Source of the DNA: Lactobacillus sp.
GTDB lineage: Bacteria > Bacillota > Bacilli > Lactobacillales > Lactobacillaceae
Direction: 5' to 3'
Assembly (NCBI GenBank): GCA_022484695.1
Contig: JAKVKU010000002.1
Coordinates: 241,579 to 305,578, forward strand
Length of the DNA stretch: 64,000 bases
The notes beneath the pieces are model-generated. The model searched no databases. It was not told the DNA's origin and saw only the letters and a list, made by a program, of their open reading frames with translations. This document shows, piece by piece, positions 49,367 through 63,525 of the stretch. The translations under genes were made by a program, and so were the position numbers. Numbering within the stretch: the stretch's first letter is position 1; every line of letters starts with the position of its first letter.

Positions 49367-49400
49367 TAGAACAATAACCAAATAAACAATCTAACATTAG

Positions 49401-49450
49401 TGATGAACCATGATTCGACGGAATCGAGGTTCACCACTTTTTTCTTTTCT
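49401..49450 (+). terminator. Terminator of the DegV-GNAT-amidohydrolase unit
   Basis: GTGATGAACC (49401-49410) and GGTTCACCAC (49429-49438) with an inner GATTC/GAATC stem, followed by a T-run at 49439-49444. It may alternatively belong to the insertion element's left end. Confidence 0.65.
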
Positions 49451-49454
49451 GGTA

Positions 49455-49625
49455 AAGTGGTATCGAAGTTGACATGTCGCAGGCTTCTTTGGCGCTTTGA
49501 CGTCGTAAAATAAACTGGCAACTTCGTTTGATTCATCAATGAGCTCGTTCGAAGATTGTTGGCACTAGATGTCGTGTATAGAAAATTGAGATGAGTGAAT
49601 TCGATGAAGCAACTTCATTAAGGTG
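49455..49625 (+). ncRNA. Candidate IS110 bridge RNA region
   Basis: In IS110 elements a bridge RNA that picks donor and target sites is encoded in the non-coding end upstream of the transposase. Here CGAAGTTG (49464-49471) and CAACTTCG (49519-49526) enclose a 47-base loop region. Further downstream ATGAAG and CTTCAT form a second small hairpin. Exact RNA ends unknown. Confidence 0.45.
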
Positions 49626-49636
49626 GGTGTTTTATT

Positions 49637-50842
49637 ATGGAATGTATTTTCGGAATCGATGTTAGTTCAAGTACAGCCAACGTAGCTGTCTTGATCGACA
49701 GTCAGGTCATCAAACAGTTTAAAATCACTAGTGATCGACCGGGCTATCAAGTGTTGGAAGATGAGCTGGACAGCTTTAAATCACCACAGATCATCTTTGA
49801 ATCAACGGGTATTTATTCACGCAGTTTACGGGCTTTTCTTCAGAGACAAGGTTGGCAGTACACTGAGATCAACCCCTTGGCAGCTAAAAAGGTGATGGAT
49901 TCTTTTCGGAACCAAAAGACGGATTCTTTAGATGCCATCGGTTTGGCTCAGGCGATGAGTCGAAATCACTTTAAGCCGTCCTACCAAGAAAAACCGGTTT
50001 ACGAAGAACTTCGTGATCTTGAACGCACTTATCAACAGCACAATAACGATATCGTTCAAGCTAAGAACCGCCTGCACAGAGCCTTACAATTGACCTTTCC
50101 AGAAATGGAATCGTTGTTAAGTACAAGGGATGGTATCTTGTATTGGCACTTAATCCAGTATTTTCCACATCCAAACCTGGTACTGGCTTACGATGTGGCC
50201 ACATTAGCCGACTTGATCCGACAGGCAACCCCTAAGAATATGGGGCAGAATCGTTCATTGCATTTAGCCGAGCGCTTGTTAGACCTAGCTGCTAAATCCG
50301 CCCCGGCTAAAACAGAAACTTCTCATGCGGTTAGAGCTACAAAAGCACTAGCCCAAGAAGTAGAGCGTTTGGACACATTAAAAGAAGCAGTTATCGATGA
50401 GATGGCAGAAGTCGCAACTGACTTGCCTGAAATTGAGCTATTGACCACGATCCCTGGTTTAGGGGTCAAGACGGCACTATGTGTCGTAGCGGAGCTTGGT
50501 GATATTCGCCGTTTTCATAGTGCCAATGCGATCAATGCCTATATCGGGATCGATCTGATCCTTTATGAATCTGGGAAGTATAGTGCCGAGCAACATATCC
50601 GCAAGCGGGGCAATGCCTATGCCCGTAAAATCCTCTACAAGGCCATCATGAATATTATCAGCACTGCTCGTTACCATCCATCCGGTGTCAGCCGCTTGTA
50701 CCAAAGAAAAAAGCAATCCTCCCAGTCCAAAAGCACTAAGAAGATTGCCATTGCGGCAATGGGCACACTCATACGTACCATTTACCACCTTGTCATAAAC
50801 AATGAGTCCTACGATACAAGCCTGTTCCTGGACGAACAGTAA
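49637..50842 (+). CDS. IS110-family transposase (DEDD recombinase)
   Basis: 401 residues. N-terminal RuvC-like domain with the DEDD set: Asp8 (FGIDVS), Glu55 (FESTGIY), Asp96 and Asp99 (KTDSLDA). Then a coiled-coil part (about 125-260) and the C-terminal Transposase_20 domain (TIPGLGVKTAL, GKYSAEQHIRKRGNAYARK). Full length and uninterrupted, so potentially active. Ribosome binding site AAGGTGGG. Confidence 0.93.
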   Translation: MECIFGIDVSSSTANVAVLIDSQVIKQFKITSDRPGYQVLEDELDSFKSPQIIFESTGIYSRSLRAFLQRQGWQYTEINPLAAKKVMDSFRNQKTDSLDAIGLAQAMSRNHFKPSYQEKPVYEELRDLERTYQQHNNDIVQAKNRLHRALQLTFPEMESLLSTRDGILYWHLIQYFPHPNLVLAYDVATLADLIRQATPKNMGQNRSLHLAERLLDLAAKSAPAKTETSHAVRATKALAQEVERLDTLKEAVIDEMAEVATDLPEIELLTTIPGLGVKTALCVVAELGDIRRFHSANAINAYIGIDLILYESGKYSAEQHIRKRGNAYARKILYKAIMNIISTARYHPSGVSRLYQRKKQSSQSKSTKKIAIAAMGTLIRTIYHLVINNESYDTSLFLDEQ

Positions 50843-50976
50843 CTCGCAGGTCATCTAAAGCTATTGTATTATTTCCTTGAAAAAATTTCAAAGTTTCAGG
50901 GTGTTATTTGATGTACCCTAAAATGATTCATTTCAGGCAATTGTCTAACGGAGATGCCTCGGCCCAAAGAAGATAA

Positions 50977-51064
50977 AAAAGAAAGTCCTTTATATAGCAA
51001 CTTTCTCTTGACTAATGGTAGAAAAGAAAGCCCTTTAGTAGCAACTTTCTCTTGGCTGATTATA
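50977..51064. repeat. Two tandem 45-base repeats, each a hairpin with minus-strand T-run
   Basis: Copies at 50977-51021 and 51022-51064, each with AGAAAG and CTTTCT arms and a T-run on the minus strand. They may act as back-up terminators for the PTS operon that ends at 51116. Confidence 0.65.
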
Positions 51065-51115: not shown

Positions 51116-52231
51116 TTATAGTACTTTCAAGTCATCCAATTGAAAATCATCATCGTCGTCGATTTCTGCCTTAGCATCCGTTGCGACAGTACTCACATTT
51201 TTCTTTAAGGCAATGACTATTGTTGCCGTAATTGCCACACCAATTAACGAGGCCAATAGGTAGGCCCATGGTTTTTGTGCCACCAATGCCACGATCCAAC
51301 CACCCCAAGGCGCTGGATTACCAGCGGCTAAACCCATAGCCGTTGCACTGGCTACTGAAGCACCAATGATGTTTGCTGGAATAACCCTTAATGGATCACC
51401 CGCTGCAAATGGGATAGCCCCTTCAGAAATACCAACCAGTCCCATGACAATTGCCGCTTTTCCAGATTCACGTTCTTCAGTCGTAAACTTCTTAGGGGCA
51501 ATAATTGTTGCCACCCCCATGGCCAGTGGTGGTACACAGATTGCGACGCCGATTCCGGCCATAATAACCATGGCCGAATGACTTGGTAACCCAGTTGATG
51601 CATTGATCGTGCCTACCATGGCAACTCCAAAACTGTAGGCAACTTTATTAACTGGACCACCCATATCAAACCCAATCATTGCACCTAAAACTAAGCCCAA
51701 AATAATTGAATTGCCTGTACCTAAGCCGTTCAGCCAGGCTGACAAGGCCTTCATCAAATTAGCAATTGGTAGCCCAATTACCCATTGCATAAAACCACCA
51801 ACAATAATCGTACTAACTAAGGGAATAATAAAAATTGGCATCACTGATTGGAGCGCACTGGGCACTTTAATCCGCCGAATAAAGAACACCGTGATGCCCG
51901 CTAATAGTCCTGAAATAATACCGCCGATAAATCCGGCACCAATTGCATTTGCCAAATAGCCACCAATGATACCCGGTGCTAACCCGGGTCGATCTGCCAT
52001 GGAATAGGCAATATAACCAGATAGAATTGGCACCATCAAACCTAAGCCAGCTGTCCCAATCCCGGCTAATTTAGCCAAAGCCCCACTAGTTGGTACTGCC
52101 GATTTTCCAGAAAATAGCACACTCAATGCTAATAAAACACCACCAGCTACAACAAATGGAATCATATAGGAGACACCTGTCATTAAATGTTTCTTAGTAT
52201 CTTTCATCAGTTGTCCTAATTCATGCCACAT
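51116..52231 (-). CDS. PTS fructose-family IIC component
   Basis: 371 residues from ATG 52231 (GAGG upstream), about nine membrane segments. KKHLMTGVSYMIPFVVAGG, GFIGGIISGLLAG and GLVGISEGAIPFAAGDP are family signatures. The tail is acidic (DDDDFQLDDL). The set of separate IIA, IIB and IIC is like FrwA/B/C and FryA/B/C, often tied to aldolases and glycyl radical enzymes, as here. The sugar is inferred, not read. Confidence 0.92.
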   Translation of the reverse strand: MWHELGQLMKDTKKHLMTGVSYMIPFVVAGGVLLALSVLFSGKSAVPTSGALAKLAGIGTAGLGLMVPILSGYIAYSMADRPGLAPGIIGGYLANAIGAGFIGGIISGLLAGITVFFIRRIKVPSALQSVMPIFIIPLVSTIIVGGFMQWVIGLPIANLMKALSAWLNGLGTGNSIILGLVLGAMIGFDMGGPVNKVAYSFGVAMVGTINASTGLPSHSAMVIMAGIGVAICVPPLAMGVATIIAPKKFTTEERESGKAAIVMGLVGISEGAIPFAAGDPLRVIPANIIGASVASATAMGLAAGNPAPWGGWIVALVAQKPWAYLLASLIGVAITATIVIALKKNVSTVATDAKAEIDDDDDFQLDDLKVL

Positions 52232-52282
52232 TATGTTCACCTCTTCAATAAGACTATGTTATCCGCCCATTTGCGTTAAAAA

Positions 52283-52615
52283 CTATGCTTCAGCTAATTT
52301 AGCCATAAGTTTTTTAACAATAATTGGAGATTTCCCAATCAAATCTCCAGACGATACCCGCAGTACTAATTTGCCTTTGAAACGATCTTCATTTTTAATC
52401 CCAATGTCATTGGTTAAAATAACGACATCTGCGGCCTTAATGGCTTCCGCCGACAATTGATTTTCAATGCCAATTTGCCCCTGTGTTTCAACATGTACAT
52501 CACAGCCCGCAGCTTTAGCAGCAGTTTCTAAACTTTCAGCAGCCATATACGTATGGGCAACGCCAGAAGGACAAGCTGTAACGCCGATAAGATTAATTGG
52601 TTTTACTTCGTTCAT
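52283..52615 (-). CDS. PTS fructose-family IIB component
   Basis: 110 residues. The phosphorylated Cys15 is in VTACPSGVAHTYMAAE, the IIB-Fru signature. Two bases after IIA in the operon. GGAGG ribosome binding site. Confidence 0.93.
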   Translation of the reverse strand: MNEVKPINLIGVTACPSGVAHTYMAAESLETAAKAAGCDVHVETQGQIGIENQLSAEAIKAADVVILTNDIGIKNEDRFKGKLVLRVSSGDLIGKSPIIVKKLMAKLAEA

Positions 52616-52617
52616 GT

Positions 52618-53082
52618 CTATACCTCCAATGCTTTCGTTAAAGATTGACTGATAAGATCGATAACCTCTTGAGCTGTTTGACTAGTTCTGATTGTATTTC
52701 TAAAGTCCTCATGTATTAAATTTCTGGATAACGCTGATAACAACCTGAGATGTTCATCACCTTTGCTGCTTTCAGGAACAGCTAATTGAAATATCAAATC
52801 AACTTTGCCACCATCCAGAGAAGCCCAGTCAATAGGATCATGCAGCCTAGCAACCGCAACTGAAATATCTTTGACAGCATCCGTTTTGCCATGGGGAATT
52901 GCAATACCAAACCCAATGCCAGTTGTTGTCAATGTTTCGCGTTCAATCACATTTTGAACATATCCCTCAAGATCGTTCAGGCGTCCCGCATTATTCAATA
53001 GTTGACCCAATTGTCGAATTGCATCGTTTTTATCTTGTGTCTTTAAATCAAGATTGATGATATCTTTAGTCACTATTTCCAT
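52618..53082 (-). CDS. PTS fructose-family IIA component
   Basis: 154 residues from ATG 53082 (GGAGGG upstream); the longer frame to 53124 overlaps the upstream region. The phosphorylated His is in GIAIPHGKTDAV. Takes phosphate from HPr. First gene of the IIA-IIB-IIC unit. Confidence 0.92.
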   Translation of the reverse strand: MEIVTKDIINLDLKTQDKNDAIRQLGQLLNNAGRLNDLEGYVQNVIERETLTTTGIGFGIAIPHGKTDAVKDISVAVARLHDPIDWASLDGGKVDLIFQLAVPESSKGDEHLRLLSALSRNLIHEDFRNTIRTSQTAQEVIDLISQSLTKALEV

Positions 53083-53240
53083 GTTCGAACCCTCCAGTAC
53101 TTTTGCTTTCCATGACATTAGCATACTTGGTCTGGCAACAAAGTTAAATAATTCCCAGGCCTATAAAGCGCTTACATTTCGTTTAACAGCGGTATCTCAC
53201 GGTTTTACTAACTAATTAGAGTTTAACCTAATTAGTTTTA

Positions 53241-53254
53241 TGCACATATGTGCA
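53241..53254. promoter_or_regulatory. Palindromic operator upstream of the PTS genes
   Basis: TGCACATATGTGCA, perfect, with further TT/AA on one side only. It shares its core with the sites at 54168 and 56896. Confidence 0.7.
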
Positions 53255-53327
53255 ATTCGAACTTAAAATTTAATCCCTCAGAATGTTTGCATCTAGTCTG
53301 AAGGATTTTGAGCGCAATATCGTATTT

Positions 53328-54029
53328 TTAAATTTGTGGCGTTTTGGTTGGTAAACTTGCTACCGTTTGATGAGCTCCAAAATTTGCTTCCCAATCCTGG
53401 GTAAAGTCAGCAACAGCTTGCCCAATAGCTGGCATCCCCAAACCGGATTTCAGAATGTCTACGCCCATGGTTACAGCTTGAGCCCCACAGGCTAACGCGG
53501 TAGTGACCTGGGCAACATTATGAAAACTGGCCGCCAAGATTTTAGTGCTGGCTTGATTAGCCTTGATAGCATTGGCAAATGCCTGCACAACTGCTGCAGC
53601 ATCAATATTCATATTTGCCATCCGATTATAATAAGGCGCAATATAATCAGCGCCAGCTTGAATCGCCAACAGTCCTTGAAATTCTGTATAAATCGCCGTC
53701 GCGGTTATGTGGATACCTTCCTGCTTTAACTGTTTAATTGCAGTTAAACCAGCTTCGTTAGTTGGTACTTTTATGAATACCCGGTCATCGATTTCGTTTA
53801 AAATCATATGGGCATCAGCAATCATTGCTTCGGCAGTTTGTCCAACAACTTGGACGTGTAAAGTTTTATTTGGTCCTAAAATTTTTCGAATTTGGCGCAT
53901 GTGATCAAAGAATTCAAAGTGACCTTCTTTTTTACAAATCGTTGGATTAGATGTCACACCGCTTAAAGGTATAATGGCATTATATTTCTCAATATCTGGT
54001 ATATGCACTGTATCTAGTAAAAATTCCAT
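53328..54029 (-). CDS. fsa: Transaldolase-like fructose-6-phosphate aldolase (FSA/TalC)
   Basis: 233 residues from ATG 54029 (GAGGGAG seven bases upstream; TTG 54035 too close). The Schiff-base Lys is in VFIKVPTNEAGL, and TATAIYTEFQGLLAIQAGADYIAPYYNRM is the FSA-type segment. FSA-type enzymes cleave or form fructose 6-phosphate or 1-deoxyfructose 6-phosphate to glyceraldehyde 3-phosphate and a ketone. Between the PTS genes and regulators; operator palindrome upstream. Confidence 0.9.
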   Translation of the reverse strand: MEFLLDTVHIPDIEKYNAIIPLSGVTSNPTICKKEGHFEFFDHMRQIRKILGPNKTLHVQVVGQTAEAMIADAHMILNEIDDRVFIKVPTNEAGLTAIKQLKQEGIHITATAIYTEFQGLLAIQAGADYIAPYYNRMANMNIDAAAVVQAFANAIKANQASTKILAASFHNVAQVTTALACGAQAVTMGVDILKSGLGMPAIGQAVADFTQDWEANFGAHQTVASLPTKTPQI

Positions 54030-54167
54030 GTCCAAACTCCCTCTCGTCTTGTTGATAGTTACACAATAACAGCGACCAACAAATTTTTATATGTTTTCTG
54101 AGCCATTGTTTTAAAACTAAGGCTTTAACCCAGTGATTCCGCATAGTCCGCTTTTTCAGTGTTACAG

Positions 54168-54189
54168 TATTTGCACATATGTGCAAATA
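54168..54189. promoter_or_regulatory. 22-base perfect palindrome, operator of the aldolase gene
   Basis: TATTTGCACATATGTGCAAATA reads identically on both strands. It lies about 140 bases before the aldolase start codon. Confidence 0.75.
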
Positions 54190-54221
54190 CTAAATCAATG
54201 ATTACCTCGATTTGAAGACAT

Positions 54222-54270
54222 AAAAACCCAAGCTTAATTTTCAAGAAATGAAAAATCAAGCTTGGGTTTT
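54222..54270. terminator. Terminator between aldolase region and AIM24 gene
   Basis: AAAACCCAAGCTTAATTTT and AAAATCAAGCTTGGGTTTT arms; terminates the minus-strand AIM24 unit. Confidence 0.8.
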
Positions 54271-54294
54271 ATCTGGACTTAACTTAATATTTCG

Positions 54295-55005
54295 TTAGTT
54301 GCTACCGCTATTGTCCGGAAAATATGGTTGCAACAAATTAGCTAGGCCTTCAATACTCCGGGTCTGAATCAGAATTGTGCCAGTCCCTTGAAAATGGTTT
54401 ACCAAACCTTCACCAGTCTTAAAGCCAAAGGTCCCACTGGCAACCTCAATATTATAGTTCAAGCTTTGACTCCAAGCCACAACGTTGCTATTGTCCACTA
54501 CATATTCATCATCGCCTTGGAGATCAACCGATATAATATCCGCATAACCTGACACTAAAAAGGTTCCGCTACCTTCTGTCTCCATCACGAAAAGCCCACC
54601 GGTACCGCCAAAAACCGCACCACTCAATTTTTGCCGGACCATTTGATAGCCGGTACCCTCGTCTGACGCTAAATATGCACTGGTATTCAAGCGCCACTGT
54701 TGGTTCCCATCAGTTTTCAATTCCCGAATTGCCCCAGGATTAGCTGGCGCAATCAATAGCTCACCGTTGTCGGAATTACCAATAGCAGTTGTGATAAAGA
54801 AGCTTTCGCCGCTGGTTACTGAGCGCCCCAATGCACTCAACACACCACCAAAGCCCTTTTTACCATTGCTATTCATATGCCCTTCCAACGCAACTTGACC
54901 GTTATGGGCAATCATCGAGCCCCGCTCGATTTGAACTTGTTCACCCTTACGCAGATGTAATGTCACCGTGGGAAAAGCCGTGTCTTTCGAGATAGTATAG
55001 TCCAA
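54295..55005 (-). CDS. AIM24 family (TIGR00266) protein
   Basis: 236 residues from a TTG start behind AAAAGGAG. Beta-helix-like repeats with GSMIAHNG, GFGGVLSALGRSVTSGESFF and GTGGLFVMETEGSGTFLVSGYADI are family signatures. The function of AIM24 proteins in bacteria is unknown. The gene lies between the aldolase and SorC gene, and it could be unrelated to the sugar pathway. Confidence 0.85.
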   Translation of the reverse strand: MDYTISKDTAFPTVTLHLRKGEQVQIERGSMIAHNGQVALEGHMNSNGKKGFGGVLSALGRSVTSGESFFITTAIGNSDNGELLIAPANPGAIRELKTDGNQQWRLNTSAYLASDEGTGYQMVRQKLSGAVFGGTGGLFVMETEGSGTFLVSGYADIISVDLQGDDEYVVDNSNVVAWSQSLNYNIEVASGTFGFKTGEGLVNHFQGTGTILIQTRSIEGLANLLQPYFPDNSGSN

Positions 55006-55097
55006 TATTCCCAGCTCCTTTTAAAATTTATTTTAGCTAAGTATAGCAAATAATTTACTAGCACGCTGGTTATGACCACTTAACAAAACAGCTACTT

Positions 55098-56045
55098 TTA
55101 TGAGATTTCTAATATACGGTTAGCCGTTTCTTCATCAGTGATCAATGTATTTAAAATACCCATGGCTAACAGAGCCTTGATAGATGGTGCTTTAGTCAAA
55201 GACCGCGCCACGCCCACTGTATTGGAAACTTGACGCAGATTATCTAGGGGTACAGCAATAGTCCGATTTAATAAACTACCCGTCAAAATTTTGCCATGGC
55301 GATCAAAGAAAGTACAACAACAATCCCCAATAGCCTGACGCTCCCGCAGCAACTCGCGATCTTCATCAGTTAGTAAATCACGCCAACGACTGGCACTATT
55401 GGTCAACGGTCCCCCTATCCCCACAAAGGCAATATCTAGATGTGCCCATAGCCGCCGGATATCACTGAAATATTGGGAATTGATAATACCATCCCGAATA
55501 TACTTCGATTCTTGAACCGCCGCTGCATCTACAAATAAGCTTTTACCACCAAATTGCCTAGCCGCATCATACACAATGCCATTCACATGATATTGAGAAT
55601 TAGAAGGGCTAGGCCCACCAACTAAGGGCACAAAGGTGGCGTCTGTTTTTACTGGATTTTGTAATTGGCCAATCATCCCCACTAATATAGAACCCCAGGC
55701 AAACCCCACGATATCCTTGGGTTTAATGATTCGTTTCAAATACAAAGCCGCCGCGAGCGACAGGCGTTGATCTTTACTTTTATTGCTTTCTTTTGGATAA
55801 CTGGGAATAATGAGAATATTTTTAAGCTGAAATTTCTCTTTCAAAGTCAATTCAAGGTCAAACAAGTCTGTATCGAAGTCATTGATCTTGATGCTCACAA
55901 TACCTAAATCCTTAGCCTGTTTCAGCATACGACTAATCGTGGTCCGATAAATATTTAGTTCCTTAGAAATTTCGGCTTGGGTGTAGTCTTCTATAAAGTA
56001 CAAGTAAGCAACTTTAGCTAATAGGCGTTTCTTATCATTATTCAT
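55098..56045 (-). CDS. SorC/DeoR sugar-binding transcriptional regulator
   Basis: 315 residues from ATG 56045 (GAGGAG upstream). N-terminal HTH: YTQAEISKELNIYRTTISRMLKQA. The C-terminal SorC-type effector domain (PF04198) shows GFAWGSIL, FVPLVGGPSPSNSQY and IAFVGIGGPL. These regulators sense a sugar phosphate, often a fructose 6-phosphate or its product. It likely binds the TTGCACATATGTGCAA palindromes and so links PTS, aldolase and glycyl radical enzyme. Lies 13 bases after the DeoR gene. Confidence 0.88.
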   Translation of the reverse strand: MNNDKKRLLAKVAYLYFIEDYTQAEISKELNIYRTTISRMLKQAKDLGIVSIKINDFDTDLFDLELTLKEKFQLKNILIIPSYPKESNKSKDQRLSLAAALYLKRIIKPKDIVGFAWGSILVGMIGQLQNPVKTDATFVPLVGGPSPSNSQYHVNGIVYDAARQFGGKSLFVDAAAVQESKYIRDGIINSQYFSDIRRLWAHLDIAFVGIGGPLTNSASRWRDLLTDEDRELLRERQAIGDCCCTFFDRHGKILTGSLLNRTIAVPLDNLRQVSNTVGVARSLTKAPSIKALLAMGILNTLITDEETANRILEIS

Positions 56046-56058
56046 ACCTATTTTCTCC

Positions 56059-56826
56059 TCAATGTACGGCAATCACATGGGTTAGTTGATTGATTTTTTG
56101 ATAATCCTCGGAATCTGGCTCTAAATTTGTAATGACATGGTCCACTTGATCCCAAGTTCCCACCTGAACCAAAGATGAAATCTGAAATTTAGACTTGTCG
56201 ATCAATAAAACTTTATTGGTACTATTTTTCATTAACTGTCGTTTCATTTCCGCATCACCAAAGCTAGAAGAGCAAAAACCAGCGCGGTCGGCGACCCCAC
56301 TTGAGCCTAAAAAACAATAGTCTAGATGTATCTGGCCATAAGTTGCTTGGGGAGAAGCCCCTTGAAAGGACATGTCTGAGACATTGTAACGACCCCCGGT
56401 ACTATAAAGGGTATTGGTTGTGCTTTGCAATGCAATTAAGGACAATAGTGAACTGGTGATAATCGTCAAATCCGGGACAGTGCTTAATAAACGGGCAAAA
56501 GTTGACACCGTACTCCCCTGATCTAAGCCAATGGTTAACGGCCGCTTAGGTAATAAATCAAAAGTAGTTGCGGCAATTTTTTCTTTATCAGCCTGATGAA
56601 TATCGGTTCGTTGTGCCACTGGCGTCAAAGGTATATTTGGCACCAAGACGGCTTTCCCAAATTGTTTGATTACAAGACCCTGCTGACTTAATATCTCAAG
56701 GTCTTTTCGAATCGTTTCGTCAGAAACTTTAAATTGGGTGACGAATTCTCGGATTTTTACACTTTTTTTAGCTCGTAACATGGCTAACATCGCTTCACGG
56801 CGTTGTTGTATCTGATCAGCTTTCAT
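56059..56826 (-). CDS. DeoR-family transcriptional regulator
   Basis: 255 residues. N-terminal HTH domain: RREAMLAMLRAKKSVKIREFVTQFKVSDETIRKDLEILSQQG, then the DeoR C-terminal (DeoRC) sugar-phosphate domain with GLDQGSTVSTFA, YNVSDMSFQG and KSKF. It is divergent from the glycyl radical enzyme gene and probably controls it through the inverted repeats in between. Operon with the SorC regulator. Confidence 0.9.
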   Translation of the reverse strand: MKADQIQQRREAMLAMLRAKKSVKIREFVTQFKVSDETIRKDLEILSQQGLVIKQFGKAVLVPNIPLTPVAQRTDIHQADKEKIAATTFDLLPKRPLTIGLDQGSTVSTFARLLSTVPDLTIITSSLLSLIALQSTTNTLYSTGGRYNVSDMSFQGASPQATYGQIHLDYCFLGSSGVADRAGFCSSSFGDAEMKRQLMKNSTNKVLLIDKSKFQISSLVQVGTWDQVDHVITNLEPDSEDYQKINQLTHVIAVH

Positions 56827-56894
56827 AATGTCTCTCCATTAAATTTATTGATGCTTTTATTATAAAGCAATTCCAATTAATTTCCAAATAAATG

Positions 56895-56975
56895 TTGGCA
56901 CTTTTGTGCAAAATAAGGCTTATTTAGCCTTATTTCCAAGTTTTTCTTGGAACTTTCACAAAAATAAGCTATACT
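56895..56975 (+). promoter_or_regulatory. Glycyl radical enzyme promoter with three nested inverted repeats
   Basis: -35 TTGGAA (56947-56952), 17-base spacer, -10 TATACT (56970-56975). Repeats: TGGCACTTTTGTGCAA (56896-56911), AATAAGGCT/AGCCTTATT (56912-56934) and TTCCAAG/CTTGGAA (56934-56952), the last overlapping the -35. Confidence 0.75.
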
Positions 56976-57011
56976 AATCTTGAAATTAAGTCACTAGGAG
57001 GGCTGATCATT

Positions 57012-59360
57012 ATGGCTTCAACATTATCCAAAACAATTCCCAGTTTCCAAAGTGTGCGACCGCATTCTCGTTTGCAAGAAATGAAACAACATCTATTTGC
57101 CCAAAAACGCCAGATTTCTTTGGAAAGGGCCAAACTTTATACTGAAAGCTATCAACAAACTGTTGGTGAACCTACGATTATGCGCCGGGCCAAAGCCACT
57201 GTGCATATATTAGATAATGTCCAAATTAGCATTCGGCCAGGGGAACTTCTTGTTGGTAACCGAACGATCCGCCCCAGAAGTGGCATTTTATCCCCGGAAA
57301 TGGACCCTTATTGGATCATGAAAGAAATTGACACCATTGCTCAACGGCCTCAGGATGAATTTGAATTTACAGCGGCTGATAAAACCTATTATCGGGAAAA
57401 ACTCCTCCCCTATTGGACGAATCAGTCCATGAAAGACTTTATCAACGCCAAAATCCCCACTGACGTTAAACAGGCTGAAGATGATTTAGTGATTAAATTA
57501 AACCAGACTGATAAGGGCCAAGGCCATATCATCATGGACTTCCCTGTGATTTTAAATCATGGTATTCAATATCTCTTGGATTTAATCCAAGAACATATTA
57601 ACCAACAACCGACCAATGACTTCTATCAAAGTGCCGAATTAATTTTTCAAGGTATGCAGCGCCACTTTGAACGTTATGCTCAGTTAGCCGAAACTATGAT
57701 GCTGGATTCTGCGACCCCCGCTTATCGCCAGATTGAACTACAAGAAATCGCTGCAATGTGTCGCCGCCTAAAAACAAAAGCGCCACAAAGTTTCTATGAG
57801 GCCTTACAACTTCTATGGATGACCAGTATTGTTGGCCAGTATGAATCCAACGCTTCATCGTTGTCCTTAGGCCGGATGGATCAGTACCTGTATCCTTTTT
57901 ACCAAATGTCCCAAAAAGCTCACGTCCCCGAAGCATTTCTGCGGGAAGTTTTAGGTGACTTCTACCTGAAAACGAACGATGTGGTCTTGTTAAGAAGTGC
58001 GGAAAGTGCCAAATGTTTTGCCGGCTTCCCAACTGGATATACCGTGGCTTTAGGGGGCCTAGACAAATATGGGCAATATGCGGTCAATGACTTATCCTAT
58101 AAAATGTTAGATCTCTACCAAGCCATCCAACTCCCCCAGCCAAACCTGTCTGTTCGAATCAACACGCAGATCCCCCAGCGTTTCTTGATGAAAACCTGTG
58201 AAACCATCCGCTACGGCACCGGGATTCCAATGCTGTTTAATGATGAAGTCTGTGTTCCCGGTTTTCTAAGCAAGGGTGTTTCTTTAGACGATGCCAGAGA
58301 TTATGCCGTGGTGGGTTGTGTTGAAACGACCATCCCCGGCAAAACCTACGGCCTCCACGATATCGCCTTATTCAACTTATTGCGCATTATGGAATTAGCC
58401 CTTTATGATTTAGAAAATGACCCCACTGTGACCTACACTAAATTACGGCAACATATTCTGGATAAGATTGATGCTTATGTTAAAATCGTGACCACCGGCT
58501 CTGATGTGGTTGACTTGGGCCATCGTCAATTCGCGCCAACGCCTTTCTTATCCGTATTAATTGAAGACTGTCTGCAAAAGGGCCAAGATGTCACAGCCGG
58601 CGGGGCTCGTTATAACTTCTCTGGGGTCCAAGGTATTGGTGAACCTAATTTAGCAGATGCCTTATATGCCATTAAACAAGTTGTTTTTGAAAATCACGAA
58701 TTAACCTTCAAAGAACTTGTGACCCACTTAGCTGATAATTTTGCCGGGGCAACTGGTGAAGCCCTGCGGCAACACTTGATTCAAGATGTTGACAAATATG
58801 GTAACGACAATCCTGAATTGGATCTGGAATGTGCCAAGTTCTTCCGGCACTATGCCTTAGAATTGGGCAAATATCGTAATATTCGCGGCGGGGAATTCAA
58901 CGCCGGTGCCTATACGGTTTCTGCCCACATTCCTTTAGGTGAGGACGTTGGCGCCACACCAGATGGTCGCAAAGCCCATGAGCAATTAGCCGATGGTGGC
59001 TTATCCCCCATGGTGGGACGCGATAAATTAGGCCCAACTGCGGTCTTAAAATCTGTCAGCAAAATAGATAACACCCTAGCCGTCAATGGCAGTTTATTAA
59101 ACTTAAAATTTTCACCTAATACCCTAAAGGGACCCGCTGGCTTGAGAAAATTTGCTGATTTCTTAATGGCATTTACCCAGTTAAAAATTCGTCATGTGCA
59201 ATTTAATGTTCAATCCAAAGAAACGTTACTTGATGCCCAAAAACATCCTGAGAACTATGCTGGTTTGGTGGTCCGTGTGGCCGGTTACAGTGCCTTCTTT
59301 GTGGATCTCAATAAACGAATTCAAGACGATATCATTCGGCGGGCTGAACACACACTTTAA
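57012..59360 (+). CDS. Glycyl radical enzyme (PflD/YbiW-like dehydratase/lyase subgroup)
   Basis: 782 residues, AGGAGG before ATG 57012. The thiyl Cys is Cys436 in VVGCVE, with Glu438 as in the dehydratase-type glycyl radical enzymes, not the Cys-Cys pair of pyruvate formate-lyase. The glycyl radical is Gly758 in VVRVAGYSAFF. PEMDPYWIMKEID near residue 100 is typical of the PflD/glycerol dehydratase subgroup. Known substrates of the subgroup include 1,5-anhydroglucitol 6-phosphate and glycerol. Context (PTS, FSA) favours an anhydrohexitol phosphate. Requires the activase that follows, and needs anaerobic conditions. Confidence 0.93.
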   Translation: MASTLSKTIPSFQSVRPHSRLQEMKQHLFAQKRQISLERAKLYTESYQQTVGEPTIMRRAKATVHILDNVQISIRPGELLVGNRTIRPRSGILSPEMDPYWIMKEIDTIAQRPQDEFEFTAADKTYYREKLLPYWTNQSMKDFINAKIPTDVKQAEDDLVIKLNQTDKGQGHIIMDFPVILNHGIQYLLDLIQEHINQQPTNDFYQSAELIFQGMQRHFERYAQLAETMMLDSATPAYRQIELQEIAAMCRRLKTKAPQSFYEALQLLWMTSIVGQYESNASSLSLGRMDQYLYPFYQMSQKAHVPEAFLREVLGDFYLKTNDVVLLRSAESAKCFAGFPTGYTVALGGLDKYGQYAVNDLSYKMLDLYQAIQLPQPNLSVRINTQIPQRFLMKTCETIRYGTGIPMLFNDEVCVPGFLSKGVSLDDARDYAVVGCVETTIPGKTYGLHDIALFNLLRIMELALYDLENDPTVTYTKLRQHILDKIDAYVKIVTTGSDVVDLGHRQFAPTPFLSVLIEDCLQKGQDVTAGGARYNFSGVQGIGEPNLADALYAIKQVVFENHELTFKELVTHLADNFAGATGEALRQHLIQDVDKYGNDNPELDLECAKFFRHYALELGKYRNIRGGEFNAGAYTVSAHIPLGEDVGATPDGRKAHEQLADGGLSPMVGRDKLGPTAVLKSVSKIDNTLAVNGSLLNLKFSPNTLKGPAGLRKFADFLMAFTQLKIRHVQFNVQSKETLLDAQKHPENYAGLVVRVAGYSAFFVDLNKRIQDDIIRRAEHTL

Positions 59361-59390
59361 TAGTCATCAATCTTTTGGGAGGTTTTTAAA

Positions 59391-60182
59391 ATGGCGGCAG
59401 GTGACCAAGGTTTAGTATTTAACATTCAACGTTACTCGGTCCACGATGGCCCGGGCATTCGCACGATTATATTTCTCCAGGGCTGCCCTTTGCATTGCCC
59501 TTGGTGCAGTAATCCCGAATCCCAAGGGGCTGTTAAACCTCTGACCTGGGTTAAAAATGGGCAAACAGAGACCATTTCCAAGTGGTGGACGGCGGCTGAA
59601 GTCATGGCAGAAATTGAAAAAGATGAAGTCTTCTACCGTAACTCCGGAGGTGGTGTGACCCTTTCCGGAGGTGAATGCCTCATGCAAGCAGACTTCTCAG
59701 CTAATATTTTAAAGGCTACTCAGGCATTAGGTATTAGCACGGCCATTGAAACCACTGGCGCGCTACCACTAACAGCCATCCAAAAGGTATTGCCTTATAC
59801 TGATTATGTTTTATTCGACTTGAAAATAATGGATTTACAAAGATCCAAACAAATCATTGGCGACAATACCGCTTGGGTTAAAGCCAGTTTTGAAGCCGCT
59901 TTAGCTGCTGATAACACTACGGTTATCCCTAGAATTCCCTTGATTCCAGGGTTTACCACAACCCAGGATAACCTTCAACAAATCGCCGACTATGTGACCA
60001 GCCTAGATATTCAAGAAGTCCATATTCTTCCCTTCCATCAATATGGCAGTCAGAAATACGACTACCTCAAACGGTCCTACACTTTAAAAGACACGCCCCT
60101 ATTAACGGCCGCTGAAGTCAGTCACATCCATGATTTTTTTGAAGCCCGTGAAATCAAGGCAGTAGTCAGTGGTCTGGAATAA
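59391..60182 (+). CDS. Glycyl radical enzyme activase (radical SAM), compact form
   Basis: 263 residues, GGGAGG before ATG. The cluster motif is CPLHCPWC (Cx3Cx2C), preceded by FNIQRYSVHDGPGIRTIIFLQG, the activase signature. The Cys-rich ferredoxin-like insertion that dehydratase-type activases carry after NPES is missing; the protein runs straight into WWTAAEVMAEIEKD. It generates the Gly758 radical of the preceding enzyme with S-adenosylmethionine. Confidence 0.92.
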   Translation: MAAGDQGLVFNIQRYSVHDGPGIRTIIFLQGCPLHCPWCSNPESQGAVKPLTWVKNGQTETISKWWTAAEVMAEIEKDEVFYRNSGGGVTLSGGECLMQADFSANILKATQALGISTAIETTGALPLTAIQKVLPYTDYVLFDLKIMDLQRSKQIIGDNTAWVKASFEAALAADNTTVIPRIPLIPGFTTTQDNLQQIADYVTSLDIQEVHILPFHQYGSQKYDYLKRSYTLKDTPLLTAAEVSHIHDFFEAREIKAVVSGLE

Positions 60183-60375: not shown

Positions 60376-61272
60376 ATGTTCGATTTAAATAAATTAATGA
60401 CTGAATCACGTAATGATAAATCCCAGCATTTAGATGACATGTCCATCGCTACTATTTTAAAATTAATGAATACCGAAGATCAGACCGTCCCCCAAAATGT
60501 GGCTAAAGCTTTGCCGCAAATTCAAGCTGCCGTTGAAAAAATCGTACACAGTTTTCAACACCAGGGTCGCTTATTTTATATTGGCGCCGGGACTTCGGGG
60601 CGCTTGGGCGTGTTGGATGCGGCGGAGTGTGTGCCCACCTTTGGCACCGACCCTGAGCTGGTCCAGGGGTTGATTGCTGGGGGGATGCCCGCCATGACCA
60701 CCGCCGTGGAGGGGGCTGAAGACGACCAAAACTTAGCGGCAACTGCCCTAAAGACCCGGCAATTAACCCCCCAAGATACAGTGGTAGGTATCGCTGCCAG
60801 CGGCCGCACCCCTTATGTCCTGGGCGGCCTAGACTATGCCACCCAGATTGGCGCCAGTACCATTAGCCTGGCCTGCAACCAAGGAGCTTGCATCAGCCAA
60901 CACGCCCAAATCGCCATTGAAGTACCAGTGGGGCCAGAAGTGTTGACCGGCTCCACCCGCTTGAAATCCGGGACCGCACAGAAATTAGTTTTAAATATGT
61001 TGTCCACCACCGCCATGATCAAAATTGGTAAAGTTTATCAAAATTTGATGGTGGACGTGCGCCCCACCAATGCTAAATTAATTGAGCGGGCCAAACAGAT
61101 CATCATGGCCGCCACGGACTGTGACTATGCCACCGCTGAACGCTTTTTTAGCGCCAGTGATCAAAACGTTAAACTAGCCATTGTCATGCTGTTAACGGAC
61201 TTAACCAAAACAGAGGCCCAAGCCCGCTTGAACAAAGCCCAAGGATTCGTTGGCAAGTCTTTGGAAAAATAA
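60376..61272 (+). CDS. murQ: N-acetylmuramic acid 6-phosphate etherase
   Basis: 298 residues. SIS domain with [22 protein letters not shown] at residues 70-91, [18 protein letters not shown] near 195, and DVRPTNAKL near 233, all MurQ signatures. It converts MurNAc-6-phosphate to GlcNAc-6-phosphate and D-lactate. It probably completes the MupG/PTS salvage route encoded at 22.7-27.6 kb. Single gene; ribosome binding site CTGGAGG. Confidence 0.95.
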
Positions 61273-61371
61273 CTGTAGTTACCCCCATCTAGCCAGGCTT
61301 CTACCCAGTATTTGCCGGTATACTTGGTGCCTGAACCGCCTAAGTTAATTGTGATTCGTTTAACATTTACC
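61273..61371 (-). pseudogene. Possible remnant of a surface-protein gene
   Basis: An open minus-strand frame without a start reads LGGSGTKYTGKYWVEAWLDG, a composition typical of extracellular repeats. It is bounded by a stop at 61374 and runs into murQ. No start codon or ribosome binding site, so at most a decayed fragment. Confidence 0.3.
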
Positions 61372-61387
61372 TATGCTCAGGTATAAT
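61359..61387 (+). promoter_or_regulatory. Promoter of the old yellow enzyme gene
   Basis: TTTAAC (61359-61364), 17-base spacer, TATAAT (61382-61387). Confidence 0.65.
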
Positions 61388-61412
61388 GAGACGTGAAAGG
61401 GGCGTTTTTATA

Positions 61413-62603
61413 ATGGCAAAATACAAATTTTTAGAACCGTATTCATTTCCAGACAAACCAATCACACTGAAAAATAGAATGGTCATCCCGCCAATGACAG
61501 AATGCATGTCTTTTCATGATGGCACGGTGACCCAAGATGAACTAGACTATTATGCCCAACACACTGGTGGCGTGGGGCTATTTATCACGGCGGTGGCTTA
61601 TGTCAACGAGCTAGGCAAGGGTTTTGAAGGCGAATTGAGCATTGCTGACGACAAATATCTGCCTGGTTTGAAGAAACTGGCTAGTGCCATTCAACAAAAC
61701 GGCACCAAGGCCGTCATTCAAATCTTTTCAGCCGGCCGCATGAGCAGTACTGCTATTTTGCGGGGGCAACAGCCGGTGAGTGCCAGTGCTGTCAAAGCTT
61801 TACGGGCTGGTTCAGAAACACCACGGGCTTTAACCGAACCGGAAATTGAGCAAACCATTGAAGATTTTGGCGCCGCTACAAAAAGAGCCATTGACGCAGG
61901 CTTTGATGGGGTGGAGATCCATGGTGCCAACACTTATTTAATCCAACAATTTTTCTCTCCTAACTCCAACCAACGGACCGACCAATGGGGTGGCAGTTTC
62001 GAAAATCGAACTAAATTCCCATTAGCGATTATCGACAAGGTTCACCAAGTGGTGGCCCAATACGCTAAAAAGCCATTTATCGTTGGTTATCGTATTTCCC
62101 CTGAGGAAATCGAAAAACCTGGCATCACCTTTGAAGATACGCTGAAGTTTGTAGATATTTTAAAGGATCAACCAATTGATTACTTACATGTTTCCATGGG
62201 CGATGTTTGGCGAAAATCCCTGAACGATCCTAAGGTCACAACGCCTTTGAACGAAACCATTCAACAACATCTTCAAGGTAAGATGCCCATGATTGTCGTG
62301 GGGGATGTGCAAACACCGCAGGATGCCGAAAAAGCCGCTGATGCTAATTTTGAGCTCATTGCCTTAGGTCGCCAGATTTTACGGGAACCCCAATGGGTAC
62401 AAAAAGTCGAAGCTGACGATGAAAAATCAATTCGCTACGCCATTTCACCAGCTGACTTAGACGAACTGGGTATCAAACCACCATTCCTAGATATCTTGTT
62501 AGCCCTCACCGGCCCCAATGGCATCCCGTTAACCACCGCGCAACAAGTGGACCGCCAAGATGCCAATGCTGGCTTGGATCACTTCTTAGGTGGCGGGGAA
62601 TAA
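61413..62603 (+). CDS. NADH:flavin oxidoreductase, old yellow enzyme family
   Basis: 396 residues from ATG 61413 (AAAGGGG upstream). FMN-dependent TIM barrel: LKNRMVIPPMTECMS, GVEIHGANTYLIQQFFSPNSNQRTD and ALGRQILREPQWV are family signatures. Members reduce activated C=C bonds. No C-terminal [4Fe-4S]/FAD domain is present, so it is the short form. Natural substrate unknown. Confidence 0.92.
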   Translation: MAKYKFLEPYSFPDKPITLKNRMVIPPMTECMSFHDGTVTQDELDYYAQHTGGVGLFITAVAYVNELGKGFEGELSIADDKYLPGLKKLASAIQQNGTKAVIQIFSAGRMSSTAILRGQQPVSASAVKALRAGSETPRALTEPEIEQTIEDFGAATKRAIDAGFDGVEIHGANTYLIQQFFSPNSNQRTDQWGGSFENRTKFPLAIIDKVHQVVAQYAKKPFIVGYRISPEEIEKPGITFEDTLKFVDILKDQPIDYLHVSMGDVWRKSLNDPKVTTPLNETIQQHLQGKMPMIVVGDVQTPQDAEKAADANFELIALGRQILREPQWVQKVEADDEKSIRYAISPADLDELGIKPPFLDILLALTGPNGIPLTTAQQVDRQDANAGLDHFLGGGE

Positions 62604-62615
62604 CTTAACAATTGC

Positions 62616-62656
62616 ACGGCTAGCTTAGGTTAATAAGACCCAGTTAGCCGTTTTAT
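62616..62656 (+). terminator. Terminator after the old yellow enzyme gene
   Basis: ACGGCTA (62616-62622) and TAGCCGT (62645-62651), then TTTATT. Confidence 0.6.
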
Positions 62657-62712
62657 TATGCCCTGAAAACGGCTATACTTAGATTATCTTTTTTTCGAAA
62701 GGAAGTTCCGCC

Positions 62713-63525
62713 ATGATTAAAGCCATTGCCCTGGATATGGACAACACTTTACTGAATTCTCAAAAACAAATCAGCCCGTTAAATCAACAGGTTTTAAAAA
62801 AATTACATCAGCAAGGTATTCAAATCATCCTCTGCTCGGGACGCGCTTTTGGCGCCCTAAAACCCTATTTGGAAACCCTTGACCTGCTAAGTGCCGAAGA
62901 TGTCTGTGTCTGTTTTAATGGCGGTTTGGTTCGAAAAACTGGCATTCATGAGGTGATTGCCGTTCAAAGCCTGCGTAAAGATGACATTCAGCCCTTGTAC
63001 GACCTGGCCAAAACCCACCATTTTCCCTTGGATATATTGGCAGAAGATTTGGTTTATTCTTTGACCGAACTGGGCAAATCGGACTATCAAAAGTTCTTGG
63101 GCACTTTAATGCCCTTTAAGGATACTAACTTTGCCGCTATTCCGGCAGCTGGTAACTACTTAAAGGTTGTTTCTGAAGCGCCAACTGATACTTTATCCCA
63201 GGCGGCCAAATTAACCGCTGCCTTGCCAGTGACCCAGACCCGCTCCCGGGCTACTTTGCTGGAATTCTTGCCCCAAGGCGTGAATAAACAAGTGGGGTTA
63301 GAGGCGGCTTTAAAGTACTTCAACCTGACCCCCGCGGAATTAATGGCTTTTGGGGATGAGGACAATGATAAGGAAATGCTGACCTATGCCGGTATTGGCG
63401 TGGCTATGGGTAACGCTGTGCCAGCCATTTTAGCATTGGCCAATCAAGTCACCACCACCAACGATCAAGACGGTGTAGCTAAGGCGTTGATGACTGAGTT
63501 TCAATTGACGCCACAAGATCTATAA
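62713..63525 (+). CDS. Cof-type HAD-superfamily phosphatase
   Basis: 270 residues. ALDMDNTLLNS carries the catalytic Asp pair, LCSGR motif II, and FGDEDNDKEMLTYAGIGVAMGNA motif III/IV. The cap domain (about 85-190) is of the C2 type, as in Cof/YidA phosphatases that act on sugar phosphates. The substrate is not predictable. Confidence 0.92.
   Translation: MIKAIALDMDNTLLNSQKQISPLNQQVLKKLHQQGIQIILCSGRAFGALKPYLETLDLLSAEDVCVCFNGGLVRKTGIHEVIAVQSLRKDDIQPLYDLAKTHHFPLDILAEDLVYSLTELGKSDYQKFLGTLMPFKDTNFAAIPAAGNYLKVVSEAPTDTLSQAAKLTAALPVTQTRSRATLLEFLPQGVNKQVGLEAALKYFNLTPAELMAFGDEDNDKEMLTYAGIGVAMGNAVPAILALANQVTTTNDQDGVAKALMTEFQLTPQDL

Follow-up and report, generated by a model that had tools for sequence, protein, structure and literature searches.

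What does a glycyl radical enzyme do in a lactic acid bacterium when its gene lies beside those for a sugar transporter and an aldolase, and how are such genes controlled? The question is raised by a cluster at positions 51116-60182 of the window, the 64,000-nucleotide stretch of Lactobacillus sp. contig JAKVKU010000002.1 (assembly GCA_022484695.1) analysed here. Judged from sequence comparison, it is probable that the PflD-type enzyme and its activase, together with a fructose-type phosphotransferase system (PTS) and an aldolase of the fructose-6-phosphate aldolase (FSA) type, serve to ferment the rare sugar alcohol 1,5-anhydromannitol anaerobically, with a SorC-family regulator as their predicted switch. 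Seven genes of the cluster lie on the minus strand and two on the plus strand, and the enzyme gene is divergent from the DeoR gene across an intergenic gap of 185 bases (56827-57011):

51116-52240, minus strand: PTS IIC, fructose type (FrwC-like), 50% identical to E. coli FrwC and, at 419.9 bits, slightly below the model cut-off of 426
52283-52615, minus strand: PTS IIB (FrwB-like), 147 bits against a cut-off of 135, 60% identical to E. coli FrwB
52618-53124, minus strand: PTS IIA, fructose type, by family match
53328-54035, minus strand: FSA-type aldolase (PRK12656), 350 against 214 bits, with Lys, Tyr and Gln, which we take to be the active-site residues of FsaA, kept at the aligned positions
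54295-55005, minus strand: AIM24-family protein between aldolase and SorC, by family match
55098-56072, minus strand: SorC-family regulator with sugar-binding domain, by family match
56059-56826, minus strand: DeoR-family regulator, by family match, its reading frame sharing 14 bases with that of SorC
57012-59360, plus strand: glycyl radical enzyme, PflD orthologue by profile scores and tree, predicted 1,5-anhydromannitol-6-phosphate ring-opening lyase, with Cys436, Glu438 and Gly758
59391-60182, plus strand: radical SAM activase (PflC-like), with CPLHCPWC at residue 32

The separate IIA, IIB and IIC, the aldolase, the two regulators, the enzyme and the activase that an initial annotation had named were all found in place and in the expected families; the AIM24 gene was absent from it. 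The matched models, which we take to be those of FrwB, FrwC and PflD, agree with the 60%, 50% and 59% identity to the respective E. coli proteins. The genome is 3.34 Mb in 25 contigs, and the grouping is no assembly accident, since the close relative G081 has the identical gene order with 95-99% identity per cluster gene.

The identity of the enzyme decides between several possible functions. It passed the PRK09983 (PflD) equivalog model (1176 bits, cut-off 1109) and is about 59-60% identical to E. coli PflD and 34-37% identical to YbiW, its closest public protein being from Agrilactobacillus composti (96%). The nearest solved structure was 8id0 at 71% identity, which according to its PDB title is Streptococcus dysgalactiae PflD bound to 1,5-anhydromannitol-6-phosphate. 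It was found with Foldseek from an AlphaFold model that served the structure search alone (predicted local distance difference test 82.7, predicted template modelling score 0.87, alignment with 50 of 120 listed proteins, residues 647-683 poorly predicted). Cys436, Glu438 and Gly758, as previously claimed, are present and are invariant across 51 aligned rows. A tree of 41 enzymes drew on 35 of 80 loci; the broken L016 was not used, and 7 of the 35 did not pass a length and motif filter and contributed no row. The window's enzyme fell in a PflD clade of 13 rows, Erysipelotrichales and E. coli rows included, with support 100/100. YbiW formed a separate clade of 8 rows (100/98), to which the window's enzyme, 37% identical, does not belong. 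Pdu-type and CutC rows lay outside the PflD clade. The CutC pair attached to the PflD side weakly (86/72), and CutC, the Enterococcus raffinosus enzyme and four others were long branches of unsure placement.

A B12-independent glycerol or 1,2-propanediol dehydratase was considered as well. By VIA-align Z, dehydratase structures stood above PflD (47 against 42), which speaks against the PflD assignment. This order was set aside because the sequence scores and Foldseek favour PflD and because residues 647-683 are poorly predicted. In sequence comparison the PflD structures scored 1229 and 1020 bits against 559 and 529 for glycerol and propanediol dehydratases, and Foldseek ranked PflD first. The glycyl radical enzyme of a Pdu microcompartment operon, the propanediol-type representative in a tree that contained no glycerol dehydratase sequence, fell in another clade, and no microcompartment genes were seen among the open reading frames scanned beside the enzyme. 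The phylogenetic check proposed in the initial annotation thus came out in favour of PflD, and scores and tree rule the dehydratase out, leaving it very little probability.

The same scores and tree dispose of a pyruvate formate-lyase (PFL)-like module for mixed-acid fermentation, which is very improbable here. Its attraction lies in names: database entries read 'formate C-acetyltransferase', a similar pneumococcal operon was interpreted as mixed-acid fermentation in the available text of PMC3302838, and the regulator PflR is labelled as one of formate metabolism in that of PMC13055309. A true PFL is however encoded elsewhere in the genome (1127 bits, cut-off 994), and the window's enzyme reached 120 bits with the PFL model, PFL and TdcE being distant from it in the tree.

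Three enzymes of this superfamily were found in the genome, namely the window's, the true PFL and an orthologue of YbiW. The latter lies on another contig, is 50% identical to E. coli YbiW, and its locus also has a DeoR, an activase and an aldolase 67% identical to that of the window. It bears on the possibility that the substrate is 1,5-anhydroglucitol-6-phosphate, which YbiW opens, or both epimers. Both epimers yield the same product according to section 5.1 of PMC12441222, and one aldolase family serves both arms. The enzyme however shares 59% of its residues with E. coli PflD and 37% with YbiW, the two form separate clades, and a YbiW orthologue is already present in this genome and in 10 of 13 PflD genomes; we regard the YbiW substrate, alone or with its epimer, as improbable. 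The initial annotation had left anhydroglucitol and anhydromannitol side by side. Anhydromannitol is now favoured, since the enzyme is PflD-type and 71% identical to the structure holding 1,5-anhydromannitol-6-phosphate, and the anhydroglucitol arm is a separate locus. 1,5-Anhydromannitol is thus the likely substrate of the window's enzyme and cluster.

The partners were examined for the same pathway. The three functions earlier proposed, PTS, ring-opening glycyl radical enzyme and FSA aldolase, are all encoded here, each by proteins of the appropriate subfamily. A pathway in which the PTS delivers, and the enzyme opens, the phosphate of some other anhydro- or deoxy-sugar, and in which the aldolase cleaves a different ketose phosphate, would agree with the aldolase being only 35-37% identical to FsaA/FsaB and below the cut-off of the general FSA model TIGR00875 (163.6 against 245.95). 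It would also agree with a transporter survey that could not identify the PTS substrate of the similar pneumococcal operon, as far as the available text of PMC3302838 goes. The 71% identity to a PflD crystallised with 1,5-anhydromannitol-6-phosphate and the recurrent presence of an FSA aldolase nearby, in two loci together with GldA, make such a sugar slightly less probable even than the YbiW substrate.

A GldA-like gene is missing from the window, as the initial annotation had stated, but the genome supplies candidates elsewhere. Seven iron-type dehydrogenase loci were found; four were scanned with NCBIfam, of which two passed as GldA-type (464 and 468 bits against 336, PRK09423), and the other three were without BLAST match to GldA. 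Both GldA-type genes were below the narrower PrpdilGlycDhGldA cut-off (360 and 348 against 700). In loci L012 and L014, outside the Lactobacillaceae, GldA directly follows the aldolase, the L012 copy scoring 511.6 against 336 bits. With the YbiW locus and the two GldA-type genes, the genome thus encodes each arm of the pathway known from the literature and a candidate for its last reductive step, in separate places.

The proposed sequence of events is as follows. The PTS, by its homology, would import 1,5-anhydromannitol as its 6-phosphate, and the activase would place the radical on Gly758. Ring opening by a thiyl radical at Cys436, the reaction published for E. coli PflD, would then give 1-deoxyfructose-6-phosphate, from which the aldolase, again by homology, would release glyceraldehyde-3-phosphate and hydroxyacetone. 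Reduction of hydroxyacetone to 1,2-propanediol, with reoxidation of NADH, could fall to a GldA-type dehydrogenase, whose gene is present elsewhere in the genome. SorC is predicted to bind the palindrome TTGCACATATGTGCAA, which is seen before the aldolase and PTS genes, and to control them in response to a phosphorylated intermediate. Our best guess for the latter is 1-deoxyfructose-6-phosphate, the product common to the PflD and YbiW arms, and the direction of control is likewise a matter of prediction. DeoR probably acts locally, as a further regulator at the divergent gap.

The predicted operator sites in the window are:

54171-54186, no strand: predicted SorC operator upstream of the aldolase, an exact palindrome found by motif scan
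53240-53255, no strand: predicted SorC operator upstream of the PTS genes, one mismatch to the palindrome, found by motif scan
56896-56911, no strand: degenerate operator in the DeoR-enzyme gap, three mismatches to the exact form, one of them in the conserved half-sites

Three palindrome matches in the window compare with 0.49 in shuffles, of which 0 of 100 reached three, and in the whole genome the aldolase and PTS sites were the only ones at no more than two mismatches. A candidate promoter of DeoR has the degenerate operator 8 bases upstream of it, and one of the enzyme gene has it 35 bases upstream, although promoter-like sites in the window were no commoner than in shuffles (26 against 23.7).

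The distribution of the operator was then compared between genomes. Among 397 Lactobacillaceae genomes, 13 had a PflD-type enzyme (at least 76% identity). The operator was compared in 23 loci of such genomes, with G000 and G081 left out. Its half-site form at up to two mismatches occurred in 39 of the 91 regions upstream of pathway genes and in 3 of 200 upstream of other genes; at up to one mismatch the counts were 19 of 91 and 0 of 200. One of the three 'other' regions belongs to a PTS IIC-like gene close to a cluster. Sites with two mismatches or fewer were found upstream of the aldolase in 8/10, the enzyme in 10/11, IIA in 3/4, ybiW in 3/8 and DeoR in 11/19; hardly any inner operon gene had one (SorC 2/11, activase 2/19, IIC 0/5, IIB 0/4). 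A site preceded the aldolase or a SorC-aldolase unit in 12/12 PflD genomes examined (G344 left out), and the aldolase still carried the operator where it lies on another contig (G079, G048, G368) or about 26 kb away (G299). Beyond the family, the PTS unit had a site in 4/6 genomes, two of them as exact half-site matches, and a site is also present in the Enterococcus hulanensis locus. The palindrome is accordingly shared with pathway genes of further Lactobacillaceae and of Enterococcaceae.

Which of the two regulators reads the palindrome was addressed by following each of them across genomes. A SorC orthologue (at least 49% identity) accompanies PflD in 13/13 genomes. The 18 genomes with YbiW only divide into 10 with SorC (at least 52%) and 8 without, and a site before ybiW was found in 7 of the former and in none of the latter (p 0.004). 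The comparison includes, on the positive side, G099, where the site overlaps the first codons of the longest ybiW reading. Among the 8 without SorC, the upstream DNA is short in two (64 and 146 bases), and a two-mismatch site lies behind rather than before the aldolase in G185 and inside an unrelated gene in G122. In G224 and G168, counted as lacking the site, a one-mismatch copy was found past the SorC gene, at a distance of 255 and 291 bases respectively. The aldolase directly follows ybiW in 8/8 SorC-less YbiW-only genomes, and in several of those with SorC it accompanies the SorC gene and carries a site of its own. This distribution before ybiW makes the SorC-family regulator the likely reader of the palindrome.

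For DeoR to be the reader instead would agree with its position next to an operator-bearing gap and with the PflR sites placed upstream of the pneumococcal DeoR and enzyme genes in the available text of PMC3302838. It would also agree with G474, where an exact site occurs and the stretch read holds a DeoR gene without a SorC gene, and which therefore counts against SorC. On the other hand, four of the SorC-less YbiW-only genomes (G169, G122, G189, G237) have a YbiW-type DeoR and no site before a pathway gene, sites occur with SorC-aldolase pairs but no DeoR in the stretches read at L194, L195, L230 and L231, and SorC is constant among PflD genomes. DeoR as reader is on this evidence unlikely. 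In the DeoR-enzyme gap an inverted repeat, AAATAAGGC..GCCTTATTT, was observed besides the operator, and in some relatives ATTCAA/TTGAAT words flank the operator there; the repeat or these words are perhaps the site of DeoR.

With SorC as the preferred reader, the guess of 1-deoxyfructose-6-phosphate as its effector follows from SorC accompanying the aldolase and both arms, which share that product. Only tentatively, and with less confidence than doubt, do we extend this to SorC as a sensor of 1-deoxyfructose-6-phosphate that coordinates the PflD and YbiW arms, the aldolase and the PTS through TTGCACATATGTGCAA across lactic acid bacteria, even where the genes are scattered.

Besides the structural Z order and G474, several observations count against the proposed pathway and its switch. 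The genome's own GldA genes and own ybiW had no operator nearby in a genome scan at up to three mismatches, and 3 of the 10 SorC-bearing YbiW-only genomes had no site before ybiW or the aldolase. Two of the six non-family genomes were without a site, and SorC is encoded in one of these two, G563. In most species the left half of the site between DeoR and the enzyme is degenerate. The p-values overstate independence, because related species were counted and divergent genes share one gap. As to the partners, an IIC of this type (at least 62% identity) was near the enzyme in only 7/13 genomes, and the specificity ascribed to the PTS derives from its neighbourhood alone. GldA adjoins the aldolase in only 2/6 non-family genomes, the contigs concerned being those of L012 and L014, and no Lactobacillaceae stretch that was read shows this arrangement.

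The two arms tend to occur together. A YbiW orthologue was found in 10/13 PflD genomes against 18/384 others (Fisher p 1e-10, odds 68), these YbiW counts being lower bounds with at most two candidates scored per genome and with G204 (36% enzyme) counted as without YbiW. A first count of 10/13 against 27/384 was replaced, as it included enzymes of 32-35% identity. The PflD and YbiW enzymes are no more than 20 kb apart in 4/10 dual genomes (G010, G310, G299, G106). In L. ultunensis and L. selangorensis (L010 15285-17741, L008 4525-7071) both arms were seen in one locus, about 3 kb apart. Among 395 genomes from the order, 7 matched at 1e-200, own genome included. The PflD gene of Lacticaseibacillus manihotivorans (L016 89-2178) is split over two frames, through decay or an assembly error. 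Enterococcal clusters (L012 4648-6768, L011 5107-7053) hold an extra large gene of 648-706 residues whose product matches IIA or PtsA weakly and may be an activator under PTS control. A Klebsiella plasmid (L250 13487-14400) has a YbiW-type enzyme near a glycosidase of glycoside hydrolase family 31 (GH31) and a major facilitator superfamily transporter. GH31 includes alpha-glucan lyases making 1,5-anhydrofructose, and it is possible that this neighbour is the source of the enzyme's substrate.

Within the window, two further features lie among the minus-strand genes:

53164-53176, minus strand: catabolite-responsive element (cre)-like site upstream of IIA, a possible CcpA site; found by eye, weak, two letters off the consensus
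54223-54270, minus strand: terminator-like hairpin of 20 pairs between AIM24 and aldolase, from a hairpin scan

Strict and relaxed cre scans gave nothing in the cluster and did not pick up the first of these. Terminator-like hairpins were about as frequent as expected (9 against 8.8 in shuffles), that at 54223-54270 having the most pairs. Since it separates the AIM24 gene from the aldolase, the latter likely has its own promoter. The AIM24-family gene is probably a passenger, because among the PflD loci read it is within the cluster only here and in G081. Just downstream of IIC, a 1635-base segment at 49387-51021 contains an IS110-family transposase gene (219 bits against 140). The segment is missing from G081, where the flanks are directly adjacent, and it is therefore likely a recent insertion. 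After the activase, genes for a MurNAc-6-phosphate (N-acetylmuramic acid 6-phosphate) etherase, an old-yellow-enzyme-type oxidoreductase and a Cof-type haloacid dehalogenase phosphatase follow at 60376-63525, an order retained in G081 and not in the other PflD loci read.

The cluster was finally compared with known systems. The radical-mediated glycolysis pathway was published in 2024 by Ma et al. (PMC12441222, section 5.1). The E. coli frwCB-pflDC genes with ptsA-fsaB-gldA are alike in the enzyme (59% identity), IIC (50%), IIB (60%), activase (40%) and an FSA aldolase. They differ in that the window's aldolase is of another FSA branch (35% to FsaB), gldA is unlinked here, IIA is a separate gene and not part of PtsA, and SorC and DeoR stand where E. 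coli has YijO as neighbour. E. coli YbiW with fsaA, the 1,5-anhydroglucitol arm, gives the same product and has the same aldolase type, with YbiW 37% identical to the window's enzyme. S. dysgalactiae PflD (8id0), the 71% identical enzyme, comes from another family of the order. The S. pneumoniae SP0245-SP0253 region resembles the cluster in its DeoR, sugar-binding-domain regulator, PTS, PFL-type enzyme, aldolase and glycerol dehydrogenase, but in the available text of the 2012 pneumococcal survey (PMC3302838) it was interpreted as mixed-acid fermentation with no PTS substrate identified. In that survey PflR sites were mapped upstream of SP0245, SP0246 and SP0251, and Table 2 of PMC3616900 likewise mentions PflR. 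No publication on this operator was found in literature searches, RegPrecise itself and supplements being outside their reach, and it may have been predicted earlier under the name PflR. Given the 2024 publication and the 2012 survey, the pathway and a similar operon are already known; what is new here is the prediction of operator and regulator and the narrowed substrate.

1,5-Anhydroglucitol is clinically relevant, and a probiotic built on the oxygen-sensitive pathway is judged unlikely to succeed in the available text of PMC12441222. The present analysis offers a likely substrate for a PTS type left orphan by the pneumococcal transporter survey, as far as the available text of PMC3302838 goes, and a compact, easily testable pairing of a predicted operator with its probable regulator. 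By their gene content, some lactic acid bacteria possess the two arms of a radical sugar pathway that was discovered only recently.

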